Positions 4,221 through 33,492 of a stretch of 42,712 nt of DNA are shown here, piece after piece. Both the position numbers and the translations under genes were made by a program. The notes under the pieces were generated by a model. That model had not been told where the DNA came from, made no database searches, and saw nothing but the letters and a program-made list of their open reading frames with translations. Every line of letters starts with the position of its first letter. Position 1 is the stretch's first letter. The DNA lies in assembly GCA_028822385.1 (NCBI GenBank), contig JAPKDV010000007.1, positions 1 through 42,712 on the forward strand, in the 5' to 3' direction. Source of the stretch: Alphaproteobacteria bacterium. Its GTDB lineage: Bacteria > Pseudomonadota > Alphaproteobacteria > UBA6615.

Positions 4221-4255
4221 AAAAAGCCTCGCTTTTTTGCCGGGGCTTTTTCTTT
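4221..4255 (+). terminator. hairpin terminator after the LLM oxidoreductase gene
   Basis: AAAAAGCC (4221-4228) pairs with GGCTTTTT (4244-4251), and the second arm runs into a T-rich tract (4247-4255). The poly-A side also lets it work on the minus strand, where it would follow the MaoC-like gene ending at 4260, so it is probably bidirectional. Confidence 0.75.
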
Positions 4256-4259
4256 TGGG

Positions 4260-4712
4260 CTAGGTCGTCACCTGACGCTGGATCATCAACGGCGCGCGCA
4301 GAGTTAGCACGTCGATATTGACCTGATTGGTGAGCACGGCGCGGGTGGTGACAAATCCACGGTCTGGCTTGCTTTTGGATGTGCGGACATCCTCTATTTC
4401 CAGACGTGCCGTTAACGTGTCGCCTGGGCGGACTGGCGCGAGCCAGCGCAATTCGTCCACGCCGGGCGATCCCATGGAGGCGCAGCGATGCAGCAGTCCA
4501 TTGACTAGTAAACGCATGAACACCGATCCGGTATGCCAGCCGCTGGCGATCAGGCCACCGTAATTGGATTGGGCGGCAGCGGCTTCGTCGATATGGAAGG
4601 GCTGGGGGTCAAACTCCGTCGCGAACGTTAGAATTTCGTCCTGGGTGAAGCTGTACTGGCCGAGCTCGAACACCTGTCCGGCTTCGAAGTCGTCGAGGTG
4701 CAATAGGGTCAT
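4260..4712 (-). CDS. MaoC-like (R)-specific enoyl-CoA hydratase family protein
   Basis: At 150 residues this is the size of a single hot-dog-fold hydratase. The family hydrates enoyl-CoA thioesters or performs related dehydratase reactions. The catalytic hydratase-2 motif is visible: Asp35 and His40 in FDPQPFHID, followed by GGLIASGWHT (52-61), which forms the substrate-side helix. The C-terminal half has the usual VRPGDTLTARLEI strand. Its ATG overlaps the stop of the upstream D,D-carboxypeptidase gene (ATGA at 4709-4712), so it is co-translated with an unrelated cell-wall enzyme. A phasin lies 2.7 kb away, but no PHA synthase is in the window, so a PhaJ role is only a possibility. Confidence 0.85.
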   Translation of the reverse strand: MTLLHLDDFEAGQVFELGQYSFTQDEILTFATEFDPQPFHIDEAAAAQSNYGGLIASGWHTGSVFMRLLVNGLLHRCASMGSPGVDELRWLAPVRPGDTLTARLEIEDVRTSKSKPDRGFVTTRAVLTNQVNIDVLTLRAPLMIQRQVTT

Positions 4713-5983: not shown

Positions 5984-6204
5984 GTAAAAGCCGATATTAA
6001 TTCTTTCAATCGAATGAAACTGATCCTAGTCAACGCGCCGAAAGCGCGCAAATAGGATTTAAAGAAGTCTGTATTCTCGGCGGGCAGCCGACCCTGTTGA
6101 AGGCTTTGATGATCGCGGGGTTAGTATCAAGATCAACGGAACAGCCAATGGGACTGTCCGGTGATACGGAGCAAATAATTTTTGTAAAATTTTTGGGGGA
6201 ACTA

Positions 6205-12535: not shown

Positions 12536-12722
12536 GGCCACAGTCTAGTTCGCAAGCTCGCCCGCACCCAAGTGGTGCGTCGTCACGGTTGAAAAATTCT
12601 CCACCAATGACCTGCTCAATCTTGAGCAGCACATTTACAGCAATCGCAAACGCTAGTCGCTTGCCACCCCCCGGCGTATCTGTGGAGGCTAGGCTGTTGG
12701 AATGGGACTGGATGTTGCTCAC
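12522..12722 (-). pseudogene. possible N-terminal scrap of a cation diffusion facilitator (CDF) gene
   Basis: A 66-codon frame, opening with GTG, lies between ridA and the FemAB-like gene. Its first half looks like the beginning of a CDF metal-efflux protein: a His/Ser-rich start (SNIQSHSNS), then GGGKRLAFAIAVNV and a hydrophobic stretch with Glu followed by VIGG. These match the pattern of CDF transmembrane helix 1. The second half does not continue into the expected DAGH helix and runs into the FemAB start. I read it as a degraded fragment, but 40 residues of weak resemblance are thin evidence and chance is possible. Confidence 0.3.
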
Positions 12723-12740
12723 CGGGTTTCGAGGTCTCTA

Positions 12741-13208
12741 CTAGGCGACTTCGAAGATGGCTTCAACTTCAACCGCAACGCCAGCGGGGAGGGAAGACAT
12801 GCCAACTGCTGCTCTGGCATGAGCGCCAGCTGTTCCGAAGACTTCCGCCATTAGGTCAGACGCACCATTGACGACGGACGGGTGGGCCTTGAAATCACGT
12901 GTGGCCGCAACAAATCCGGTAAGTTTGACGACCCGCGTGATGCGATCGAGATTTCCATTAAGGGCAACCTTGGCCTGAGCAATCACTGACAACGCACAGA
13001 TGCGTGCTGCTGCGGCACCTTCCTCGACGTCAAAATCAGCACCGAGGTGACCAATGAAACCCGGCTTGCCGTCGACCACGGGAATTTGTCCGGAGACGAA
13101 CAGCAGATTGCCGCTGCGGACGAAAGGCACATAGTTTCCCGCAGGAGTGTTGGCTACCGGGAGTTCGATCCCGAGTTCAGTAAGGCGTGCGTCAATCCTA
13201 CTTACCAT
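12741..13208 (-). CDS. RidA family protein (YjgF/UK114)
   Basis: RidA-type proteins hydrolyse reactive enamine/imine intermediates from PLP enzymes, protecting amino-acid metabolism. The 155 residues carry the family pattern: YVPFVRSGNLLFVSGQIP (27-44), a central ALSVIAQAKVALNGNLDRITRVVKLTGFV, then the C-terminal GAHARAAVGMSSLPAGVAVEVEAIFE signature containing the conserved Arg. This is the longer YjgF-like subgroup (about 150 residues) rather than the 128-residue canonical RidA, so deaminase activity is not certain. The ATG has a good AAGGACAA site upstream. It is transcribed in the same direction as the FemAB-like gene, about 205 bp away. Confidence 0.9.
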   Translation of the reverse strand: MVSRIDARLTELGIELPVANTPAGNYVPFVRSGNLLFVSGQIPVVDGKPGFIGHLGADFDVEEGAAAARICALSVIAQAKVALNGNLDRITRVVKLTGFVAATRDFKAHPSVVNGASDLMAEVFGTAGAHARAAVGMSSLPAGVAVEVEAIFEVA

Positions 13209-19258: not shown

Positions 19259-19845
19259 AAATCGGCGTTGACCCGCAGTCCTTCCGCCAAACGGTTTTTA
19301 TACTCCGCTCGATCAATCTCGATCGTTCCGAACTGCTTTAAGTGATCCGTGAGAAACTGACTGTCCAACAGGGTATAACCACTCTTGTTAAGCCGTGCAG
19401 CGAGATGACAGAGCGCGATTTTGCTGGCATCGCGCGCTCGTGTGAACATGCTCTCGCCGAAAAACACACCACTCAGAGACACGCCGTACAGTCCGCCGAC
19501 GAGCTCTTCATTCGCCCAGCACTCAACCGAATGGGCGAAACCCATCTCAAACAAGGCCGCGTAGAGCCGCTCGATTTCGTCATTGATCCAGGTTTCCAGT
19601 CGAGCCCCCTTGGGTTCGGCACAGGCACGAAGAGTGCCAATGAAATCATCGTCGCAGCGAATCTCATATGGGGCAACGCGCAGGGTTTTGCGTAGCCGCC
19701 GTGGAATGTGAAAGCAGTCCAGTGGAATAATTCCACGCATGTCCGGGTCGATCCAATATAGATCTGGATCGTGACGGCTTTCCGCCATCGGGAATATCCC
19801 GCTAGCGTAGGCACTGAGAAGTAACTGTGGGGTCAAGCCTGACAT
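19195..19845 (-). CDS. aat: leucyl/phenylalanyl-tRNA-protein transferase
   Basis: Aat moves Leu or Phe from its aminoacyl-tRNA onto the N-terminal Arg or Lys of proteins, making them substrates for ClpS/ClpAP. At 216 residues it is normal in size. Family motifs are YASGIFPMAESR near residues 12-23, LYWIDPDMRGIIPLDCFHIPR (28-48), the CWANEELVGGLYGVSLSGVFFGESMF block (109-134), which forms the GNAT-like active site, and YTLLDSQFLTDHLKQFG. It is the last gene of the accB-accC relic/aroQ side, starting 13 bp after the relic's stop. Its 3' end overlaps the convergent DUF2155 gene. clpS, clpA and bpt are in the same window. Confidence 0.95.
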   Translation of the reverse strand: MSGLTPQLLLSAYASGIFPMAESRHDPDLYWIDPDMRGIIPLDCFHIPRRLRKTLRVAPYEIRCDDDFIGTLRACAEPKGARLETWINDEIERLYAALFEMGFAHSVECWANEELVGGLYGVSLSGVFFGESMFTRARDASKIALCHLAARLNKSGYTLLDSQFLTDHLKQFGTIEIDRAEYKNRLAEGLRVNADFQPGLSALELDDFIQSTTQTS

Positions 19846-19858
19846 GGATAACCGCTAA

Positions 19859-20177
19859 CTAGGAAGCTTCGACGAAACGCTCGAGCCAATGAATATCATA
19901 ATCTGAGGTCGCGAAGGAGTGGTCGTCGATCGGGCGGGGGTGCGGGGAAACGGTTGTTGAAACGCGGTCGATGACTGTTTTGCCAATGCTTCGGCGCAGC
20001 GGTAGGTTTTGAAACCGCCGTATTCTCGACGGCGGGTGCGGCTGCAACCGCAGCCGGTCGGGCGACGTGGATGCATTGTCCGCCATCTTCGTATTTTATT
20101 TCACTCGGCCTCGTTTTTTCAAGCGAGGCTGACAACTTACAGATCAGCTCTGCATTGACGTCAAAAGAGACACTCAT
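19859..20177 (-). pseudogene. deletion relic: accB 5' end joined to accC 3' end
   Basis: These would normally be the biotin carboxyl carrier protein and biotin carboxylase genes of acetyl-CoA carboxylase, placed between aroQ and aat. From 20177 one frame gives a good AccB N-terminus (MSVSFDVNAELICKLSASL, then SEIKYEDGGQCIHVAR and an Ala/Pro linker). From about 19996 to 19859 a different frame gives the AccC C-terminus, with VIDRVSTTVSPHPRP and SDYDIHWLERFVEAS aligning without gaps to the usual ending of biotin carboxylase. Everything between is missing: the biotinyl domain with its MKM lysine and almost all of the about 450-residue carboxylase. The pieces are out of frame, and the carboxylase piece has unusual substitutions (ID-Arg-V for the usual ID-Gly-V). 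Neither half can function. Confidence 0.8.
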
Positions 20178-20184
20178 AGGGGGA

Positions 20185-20673
20185 CTATAAATCCATCTGT
20201 GCAGCAAGAGCGTCGATTGCGAGTACGTAACTCATTGCACCGAACCCGCATACAACGCCTGTCGCAGCCGCGCTGATATAGGACTTATGTCGGAACTCTT
20301 CACGGGCAAAGATGTTGGACAGATGAACTTCAACAATCGGGATATCCAACAATCGGAGGGCATCGTGCACGGCCACAGACGTGTGTGTGTAGGCACCGGC
20401 ATTGATGGCTAATCCCGAGGCGGCCGTCCGTGCTTCTTGTACCCAAGCGACAAGTTCGCCCTCATGGTTGGATTGGCGGAATTCGATGTTGAAATCGGAT
20501 TTCGCAGCCGTGTCTCGGCAACGCAGTTCGATATCAGCAAGGGATTCCCCGCCATAGATACCTAGCTCACGCTCACCGAGCAGATTGAGGTTAGGGCCGT
20601 TCAAGACCCAGATTGACCTTCGCGTTACCACGTTTCTATGTCCTGCAAGTTGATCTACAACGCGGGTTACCAT
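20185..20673 (-). CDS. aroQ: type II 3-dehydroquinate dehydratase
   Basis: AroQ converts 3-dehydroquinate to 3-dehydroshikimate in the shikimate pathway. The type II signature is clear: [20 protein letters not shown] (residues 23-42), with the catalytic Tyr40 on the mobile loop. The [14 protein letters not shown] helix, [12 protein letters not shown] with the catalytic His, and [22 protein letters not shown] follow. The first 18 residues are longer than usual; a GTG at 20631 would give a more standard start. In relatives aroQ leads an aroQ-accB-accC series, and here it is still eight bases from the accB remnant. A promoter would have to lie in the 115-bp gap behind the damaged marR. Confidence 0.94.
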
Positions 20674-20788
20674 GTGCGGTTGATTCTGGGCAATTGAGTC
20701 TAATTTCTGCAGGTTGAGGCAAGGAAATATCCTGATGTTAAAAAAATGCGCTTCTGTGCTTCGAAGATTTGACTATAACCCGCCACCT

Positions 20789-26068: not shown

Positions 26069-26836
26069 ATGGCTTCTGAATTACGCCTCGGCGTCAATGT
26101 CGACCATGTGGCGACCATCCGGAACGCGCGTGGCGGAGGATTACCTGATCCTGTAAGGGCTGCGAAAGCAGCTGCCGCGGCTGGTGCGGACAGCATTGTT
26201 GCCCATCTTCGGGAGGATCGTCGGCATATTTCCGATGATGATCTGATCCGATTGCTGGATGCGATTGAAATTCCGTTGACGCTGGAAATGGCAGCGACCG
26301 ATGAGATGCTGGGTATTGCGCTGCGACACGCCCCGCATGCGGTGTGCATTGTTCCCGAGCGTCGCGAAGAGCAAACCACCGAAGGTGGACTTGACGTTGT
26401 CTCTGGTCACAACCACCTAAAGCGGTTTGTTGATGATCTGGGGGAACGTGGTGCGATCGTATCTATGTTCATTGAGCCCGATCGGGCACAGCTCGACGCC
26501 TCACGGTCGATTGGTGCGCCAGCGGTTGAAATTCACGTTGGCGCCTATTGCGACGCGCTGATTGATGGCAAAGAATACGAAGCAGATTGTCTACTTGATC
26601 GGATTGTTGACGCGGCTGAATACGGAACGAAGATAGGGCTAAAAATGCATGCCGGCCATGGCATTACCTTCGATACCGTCGGCCCAGTCGCTGCTATTCC
26701 GCAAATTGAGGAATTGAACATCGGGCATTTTCTGATTGGTGAAGCAATCTTTGATGGATTGCATAGTTCTATCAAACGCATGCGAGGGTTGATGGATAAG
26801 GCCCGGTCGAATGCCATAGACGAGGCAATCGTATGA
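26069..26836 (+). CDS. pdxJ: pyridoxine 5'-phosphate synthase
   Basis: PdxJ condenses 1-deoxyxylulose 5-phosphate with 3-amino-2-oxopropyl phosphate to make vitamin B6 phosphate. The 255-residue TIM barrel begins [19 protein letters not shown], with the conserved His and Arg residues that bind substrate. Other hallmarks are [14 protein letters not shown] (48-61), the catalytic Glu in PLTLEMA and the phosphate site HAGHGI around 192. It overlaps acpS by four bases (ATGA), so the two are coupled. The pdxJ-acpS-lepB-rnc-era-recO order is a standard proteobacterial arrangement. Confidence 0.97.
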
Positions 26837-27285
26837 GTGAAGACAATCCGTCGAAGCCGATAGTGCCGATGTATCCGATGATTATTGGGTTGGGCAGCGA
26901 CTTAATCAACATTACCCGAGTTGAAAAGACCCTCGCGCGTTTCGGGGAACGTTTTACGACAAGATGTTTTACGGATGTCGAACGTGCCAAATCTGATCGT
27001 CGCATGAACCGTGCTGACAGTTACGCCAAGCGTTACGCTGCAAAGGAAGCTTGTTCAAAGGCGCTCGGAACCGGGTTTCGAAAAGGTGTCTTTTGGCGTG
27101 ATGTGGGGGTCATCAATTTGCCATCGGGAAAGCCCACACTGCACCTGACGAATGGTGCTGCGGCACGTCTTGCCGAAATCACACCACCGGGCATGAAGCC
27201 GCTTATCGAGCTTTCACTCACCGACGAACCCCCGCTTGCGCAAGCGATTGTCATTATATCCGCAATCCCCGATATCACAGACTGA
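26833..27285 (+). CDS. acpS: holo-[acyl-carrier-protein] synthase
   Basis: AcpS attaches the 4'-phosphopantetheine arm of coenzyme A to acyl carrier protein, as needed for fatty-acid synthesis. The core starts after about 15 extra residues with [23 protein letters not shown], whose Asp binds Mg, and continues with [19 protein letters not shown], containing the second metal-binding Glu. The C-terminus has the usual [16 protein letters not shown] strand. Internal ATGs (MYPMIIGLG) could be alternative starts, but the first ATG overlaps the pdxJ stop and is the simplest choice. The length, 150, is slightly more than the usual 125-140. Confidence 0.95.
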
Positions 27286-32829: not shown

Positions 32830-32910
32830 CCTTTCACGTACATTGTGAGAGCGCCAGAAAACTGATAATTGTCTGTAACTGCAGTTGAGCCATCGAATCG
32901 GAGACGAACC

Positions 32911-33492
32911 ATGCAGATAGCAACGGGCACTGCGCCTACCTTAATTAATGCAATTTGGCCCCGCGAAACTGGCGGCGTGTTGCGCTTAGCCCTGTTGGCA
33001 ATTGTCGGCAGCATGCTGATGGCGGTATCGGCAAAAATTCAGGTCCCGATGTGGCCTGTGCCGATGACTATGCAGACCTTTGCCGTTCTTGTGATCGGTA
33101 TGGCCTATGGCGCGAAGCTCGCTGGTGCGACCCTGTTGCTCTATCTCGCCGAAGGCGCTGCCGGACTTCCCGTATTCGCGAGTGGCGCTGGCCTGCCTTA
33201 CATGGCCGGGCCGACGGGCGGTTATCTGGTGGGTTTCCTCGTCGCTGCGATAATGGTTGGCTGGCTCGCTGAGCGCGGCTGGGACCGAAATGTCGCGTTG
33301 ACGTTTCTGGCCAATCTCGCTGGCACAGCTATAATTTTTGCGTTGGGCGTGGCCTGGTTGTCCACGATCATGGGTGGTTTTGAGAAAGCGGTCGTCGCTG
33401 GTTTTCAGCCATTTATTGTCGGCGCGATAGTAAAGATCGCTTTGGCCGCGGCTATGCTTCCGCTGGTCTGGAAGCTCCTGCCTCGACGTTAG
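32911..33492 (+). CDS. bioY: biotin transporter BioY (ECF S-component)
   Basis: BioY is the membrane substrate-binding component that imports biotin, alone or with an ECF module. I start it at the ATG at 32911, preceded by GGAGACGAACC, rather than the TTG at 32869; this gives 193 residues. Five to six hydrophobic helices are visible, with the family signature VPMTMQTFAVLVIGMAYG (about 48-65) and the AGLPYMAGPTGGYLVGFL segment (about 97-114) that forms the biotin-binding loop. No bioM/bioN genes are beside it. Its presence suggests biotin uptake; biotin synthesis genes are not in the window, so auxotrophy cannot be judged. Confidence 0.93.
   Translation: MQIATGTAPTLINAIWPRETGGVLRLALLAIVGSMLMAVSAKIQVPMWPVPMTMQTFAVLVIGMAYGAKLAGATLLLYLAEGAAGLPVFASGAGLPYMAGPTGGYLVGFLVAAIMVGWLAERGWDRNVALTFLANLAGTAIIFALGVAWLSTIMGGFEKAVVAGFQPFIVGAIVKIALAAAMLPLVWKLLPRR

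Follow-up and report, generated by a model that had tools for sequence, protein, structure and literature searches.

Most bacteria cannot live without heteromeric acetyl-CoA carboxylase (ACC), a pursued antibiotic target. What, then, has become of this enzyme in a genome whose aroQ and aat genes enclose mere stumps of accB and accC, and what could have taken its place? We addressed these questions in a 42,712-nt stretch of DNA from an Alphaproteobacteria bacterium (assembly GCA_028822385.1, contig JAPKDV010000007.1, positions 1 to 42,712 of the forward strand), hereafter the window, and in the assembly to which it belongs.

The interval between aroQ and aat

Read along the minus strand, the locus consists of aroQ (20673-20185), a spacer of 339 bp, and aat (19845-19195). 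Both flanking genes are intact: the left neighbour aroQ encodes a type II dehydroquinase (Pfam DHquinase_II, E 3.5e-57) and the right neighbour aat a leucyl/phenylalanyl-tRNA protein transferase (Pfam Leu_Phe_trans, E 4.8e-64). The aroQ stop codon occupies 20185-20187, and the ATG of a truncated accB, accB', lies at 20177. This stump (20043-20177, minus strand) comprises approximately the first 45 codons of accB, encoding the AccB N-terminus and the start of the Ala/Pro linker, and lacks the biotinyl domain. A second stump, 'accC (19859-19999, minus strand), retains the final 46 codons of accC and the stop codon in a frame that differs from that of accB'. Its stop (19859-19861) precedes the aat ATG at 19845 by 13 bp, exactly as the original prediction stated. 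Missing from the spacer are the AccB biotinyl domain and nearly all of AccC, including the ATP-grasp domain, a loss that had also been foreseen. The deletion is somewhat smaller than the 1.6-1.8 kb first claimed. In the four other aroQ-bearing congeners (G001-G004) the aroQ-aat interval measures 1823-1833 bp, so that the net loss amounts to 1.48-1.50 kb. Split alignment against the four congener spacers places the junction within 19965-20027, a zone across which the best split shifts with the congener used as reference.

Alignment to the congeners provides the identity of both stumps. The accB' stump (FDVNAELICKLSASLEKTRPSEIKYEDGGQCIHVAR) aligns gap-free over 36 residues at 56% identity with the AccB of each of the four congeners, as against 86-100% AccB identity among the congeners themselves. 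The 'accC stump (LRRSIGKTVIDRVSTTVSPHPRPIDDHSFATSDYDIHWLERFVEAS) aligns gap-free over 46 residues at 50-57% identity with the congener AccC C-termini and is also matched by tblastn with congener AccC queries. These alignments, in two frames, bear out the central proposal of an accB'-'accC deletion relic. The profile search suggested alongside it was less uniform: 'accC gives a weak match to Pfam Biotin_carb_C (E 0.22) confined to profile positions 68-108, the C-terminal end, while accB' gives no Pfam match. Identification of the stumps thus rests on congener alignment and not on profile search.

Gene order in relatives is as the original prediction described it. Full accB and accC fill the interval in G001-G004, and of 80 alphaproteobacterial loci retrieved through their aat gene, 66 have a near-full accC directly upstream of aat; in the remaining loci accC is cut by a contig end, lies farther off, or gives no match. 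The window therefore retains the neighbours, order and orientation of the conserved alphaproteobacterial aroQ-accB-accC-aat arrangement and departs from it in holding only stumps of accB and accC. Two relatives deserve separate mention. In Sneathiella glossodoripedis (L129), accC, between accB and aat, matches over only 305 of ~447 residues, possibly owing to a draft frameshift. A fifth member of the genus, G005 (L153, L163, L169), yields accD, fabD and plsX and no match to accA, accB or aroQ; it may share the deletions or may simply be incomplete (87%).

The stumps have decayed as expected of non-functional DNA. Among residues invariant in the four congeners, 26 of 62 are changed in the stumps versus 18 of 307 in aat and aroQ combined (Fisher p 5e-12; singly, 9 of 127 for aroQ and 9 of 180 for aat), in agreement with the substitutions at conserved positions noted at the outset. 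In leave-one-out controls, the corresponding accB and accC pieces of the congeners show 0-4 changes among 29-37 residues. Likewise, dN to the congeners is mostly 0.23-0.33 for the stumps and 0.06-0.10 for the flanking genes. This decay argues against a misassembly, because an assembler junction would join fragments of working genes, whereas the stumps have lost constraint. An artefact of metagenome assembly or strain mixing, with intact accBC at this locus in the real genome, is accordingly improbable. In its favour, the sequence does come from a fragmented assembly. Against such an artefact, however, stand the divergence of the stumps at sites conserved in intact genes, the independent scars of like kind borne by accA and several unrelated genes, and the lack of any other contig in the bin with intact accB or accC. 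It is scarcely credible that the remnant encodes a functional small or fused protein: open frames of 93-103 codons across accB' and of 75 codons across 'accC do exist, but the pieces lie in different frames, contain neither a biotinyl nor an ATP-grasp domain, and are no longer under constraint. The scar is genuine, old and non-functional, and is almost certainly a real deletion relic.

Loss of accA and erosion of other genes

The remainder of ACC was sought across the assembly (2.43 Mb in 233 contigs, 89.8% complete). HMM searches of these data recovered no ACC-type BCCP, no accC over the cut-off, no accA and no accD. The sole biotin-carboxylase and carboxyltransferase genes in the assembly are a propionyl-CoA carboxylase (PCC) pair on contig C205 and a 3-methylcrotonyl-CoA carboxylase (MCC) pair on contig C50. 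The second accBC copy or replacement ACC that had been anticipated elsewhere in the genome was not found in the 233 contigs. Within the family, accA passes the cut-off in 22 of 24 genomes and accD in 23 of 24.

To locate the native positions of accA and accD, the neighbouring proteins of the congeners, joined by runs of X, served as probes. On contig C129, 138 bp separate the end of xerD at 4226 from that of secA at 4364 (L187, 4227-4363). This gap contains no remaining accA sequence. It does hold the N-terminal stump of a luciferase-like oxidoreductase (RQASHMAVFGIYDYIDQR, compared with RQAIHMVEFGIFDHLDQR in G003), whose gene adjoins accA in G003 and G004. Thus accA was deleted as well, at a locus unlinked to accBC. 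Loss of accD, by comparison, was rejected as a finding: contig C78 stops inside folC, the congener neighbour of accD, and trpA, on the other side of accD, is likewise not found, so the accD position falls in an assembly gap. With accBC and accA both gone from their native loci, these sites can no longer encode the standard heteromeric ACC. Relocation of accBC alone, one of the histories first proposed for the scar, is too narrow an account because accA has also been deleted, from its own unlinked locus between xerD and secA.

When the window was compared over its full length with G001, G003 and G004, several similar scars emerged beyond the single one originally described. A CDF cation-efflux gene, full length in all three congeners, survives at 12545-12743 (minus strand) as an N-terminus joined in frame to the last residues, with ~60 of ~300 codons left; tblastn with the congener gene matches 46 amino acids of this relic at 72% (frame 2). 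A lipoprotein-like gene, intact in the same three genomes, persists as a C-terminal stump (PVEGFDDRGVSIKINGTANGTV) at 6087-6164 (plus strand). An ODC-like decarboxylase gene is absent from its place between aroQ and a marR-like gene (20674-20788) and has no match anywhere in the window; it encodes 379 amino acids in congeners and is present in L032, L034 and L035. Two further absences fall on other contigs: that of a sensor-like gene next to PCC and that of a membrane-protein gene next to MCC. Throughout the window, the neighbours of eroded genes are intact.

The accBC scar thus belongs to a set of deletions in a lineage that is losing genes, and there is nothing unusual in how the loss came about. 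As in other bacterial deletion pseudogenes, the centre has been removed, both ends remain, the neighbours are intact, constraint has been lost, and several such relics occur in one genome. Unlike those pseudogenes, the affected gene is normally essential. The unusual point is that ACC was dispensable.

Fatty-acid synthesis and candidate sources of malonyl-CoA

FabD uses malonyl-CoA as its substrate, and the state of fabD and its partners bears directly on whether that metabolite is still supplied. Intact fabD, fabG and fabF lie together on one contig, a partial plsX is kept as well, and an acpS-like gene, named from its ORF sequence as a holo-ACP synthase and with orthologues in G004 and others, is retained in the window (26800-27282, plus strand). 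Among congener-invariant residues, 13 of 247 are changed in FabD and 11 of 215 in FabG, compared with 4-13 in congener controls; both genes are as constrained as in the ACC-bearing congeners. Since fabD did not decay alongside the stumps, the supply of malonyl-CoA appears to have continued after ACC was lost, and malonyl-CoA is probably still made. We infer that the constraint retained by fatty-acid synthesis favours replacement of ACC over its plain loss.

Loss of the housekeeping fabH was considered and rejected in favour of an assembly gap, as contig C100 breaks off within plsX, immediately short of the position of fabH in the congeners. The sole FabH match in the assembly sits in a large glycan gene cluster on contig C195 (L208), which comprises a FabH-like ketosynthase, a carrier protein and an acyl-ligase-like gene adjoining sialic-acid-type sugar genes. 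In the congener G001, plsX is split into two frames (contig C16, 3438-4438; L214, L215), which reflects either a true frameshift or an error in sequencing.

Of the enzymes visible in the assembly, PCC is the favoured candidate for malonyl-CoA synthesis, by analogy with the rickettsiae. Rickettsiae lack all ACC subunits, and PCC has been proposed as the substitute; this replacement was inferred from gene content together with the ability of Wolbachia PCC to complement an Escherichia coli ACC mutant (PMC5615194). In the present genome, pccA is full length and pccB is cut by the start of contig C205, and the pair is 79-91% identical to its congener counterparts. MCC, the other candidate within the assembly, is less likely to serve than PCC.

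Closer examination of PccB lends no support to a switch in specificity, which was rejected since the known Asp/Ile position is unchanged: PccB retains the Asp (GGAYDVM) associated with a preference for propionyl-CoA. That Asp influences substrate choice, and a PCC-like enzyme with the same residue can nonetheless be promiscuous (PMC7835884). PccB has accumulated 20 private substitutions versus 9 in G004, as against 140 versus 203 across nine other genes; the excess, a post hoc comparison, has an uncorrected p of 0.005 and is weak once the ten genes are corrected for. PccB (C205; L191, 3-1304) also carries a Glu to Gln change in the motif SGGARIQE, at a Glu otherwise kept in the AccD and PccB proteins fetched from relatives and likewise among the five nearest solved structures listed. 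The substitution excess and the Glu to Gln change are at most a weak pointer to PCC and are a lead only.

The bioY-like gene of the window (32869-33489, plus strand), originally thought to fit a need for imported biotin, is not informative. Congeners carry bioY at the same place (86% full-length identity in G003 and 81% in G004), and bioY was rejected as a sign of a biotin need tied to the scar. PCC and MCC still require biotin.

Possible replacement of acetyl-CoA carboxylase

The explanation that we prefer, with a probability of roughly 45%, is a composite: the scar is a deletion relic in a gene-losing lineage in which another resident carboxylase, chiefly PCC, replaces ACC. The lineage sheds non-essential genes through deletions of ~1-2 kb that spare their neighbours, the pattern shown by the scars above. 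The same process removed accA from between xerD and secA, and with it all but a stump of the adjoining luciferase-like oxidoreductase gene, a loss equally shown by what is left there. The likeliest course is that another carboxylase took over the carboxylation of acetyl-CoA and rendered ACC redundant; PCC could be that enzyme, as proposed for Rickettsia. The fuller claim, namely that a non-Rickettsiales alphaproteobacterium has lost the whole of ACC, relies on resident PCC for the malonyl-CoA of fatty-acid synthesis and still carries its old genes as readable scars, is tentative, and we consider it possible but somewhat doubtful.

A serious rival to PCC, itself doubtful though well worth entertaining, is that a complete ACC, either an accBCAD cluster or a multidomain enzyme, was acquired or relocated and made the native ACC redundant. 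Such genes would reside in the ~10% of the genome that is unassembled or unbinned, for example on a plasmid or island whose composition or coverage is atypical. In an assembly of 233 contigs that is 89.8% complete, an acquired ACC could well have been missed, and accD and the housekeeping fabH demonstrably fall in assembly gaps beyond contig ends. These features favour an acquired enzyme and weigh against the PCC explanation. The propionyl-CoA-preference Asp that PccB keeps also weighs against PCC, and the normal constraint on the fatty-acid synthesis genes accords with an acquired ACC too. However, the assembly yielded no fragment of an extra BCCP, biotin carboxylase or ACC-type carboxyltransferase. 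It is unlikely that the organism makes no malonyl-CoA from acetyl-CoA and instead uses imported fatty acids or malonate. The assembly does lack every ACC subunit and does encode several acyl-CoA ligases, with 13 AMP-binding proteins of this kind found. Among the ten of these that were scanned, however, none exceeds the family cut-off for malonyl-CoA synthase (MatB; best 286 versus 558 bits), and fabD and fabG show no decay, in contrast to the strong decay of the ACC stumps.

Replacement by PCC would place this organism beside Rickettsia, which it resembles as an alphaproteobacterium without accB, accC and accA that has kept type II fatty-acid synthesis and PCC. Unlike in Rickettsia, the loss of ACC here has left readable scars, none of the four congeners inspected at this position shares the loss of accBC, and MCC is also kept. 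If this reading is true, a natural lineage that dropped ACC yet kept fatty-acid synthesis would show how an essential enzyme gets replaced, and its ACC-bearing close relatives permit the states before and after to be compared directly, PCC first among them.
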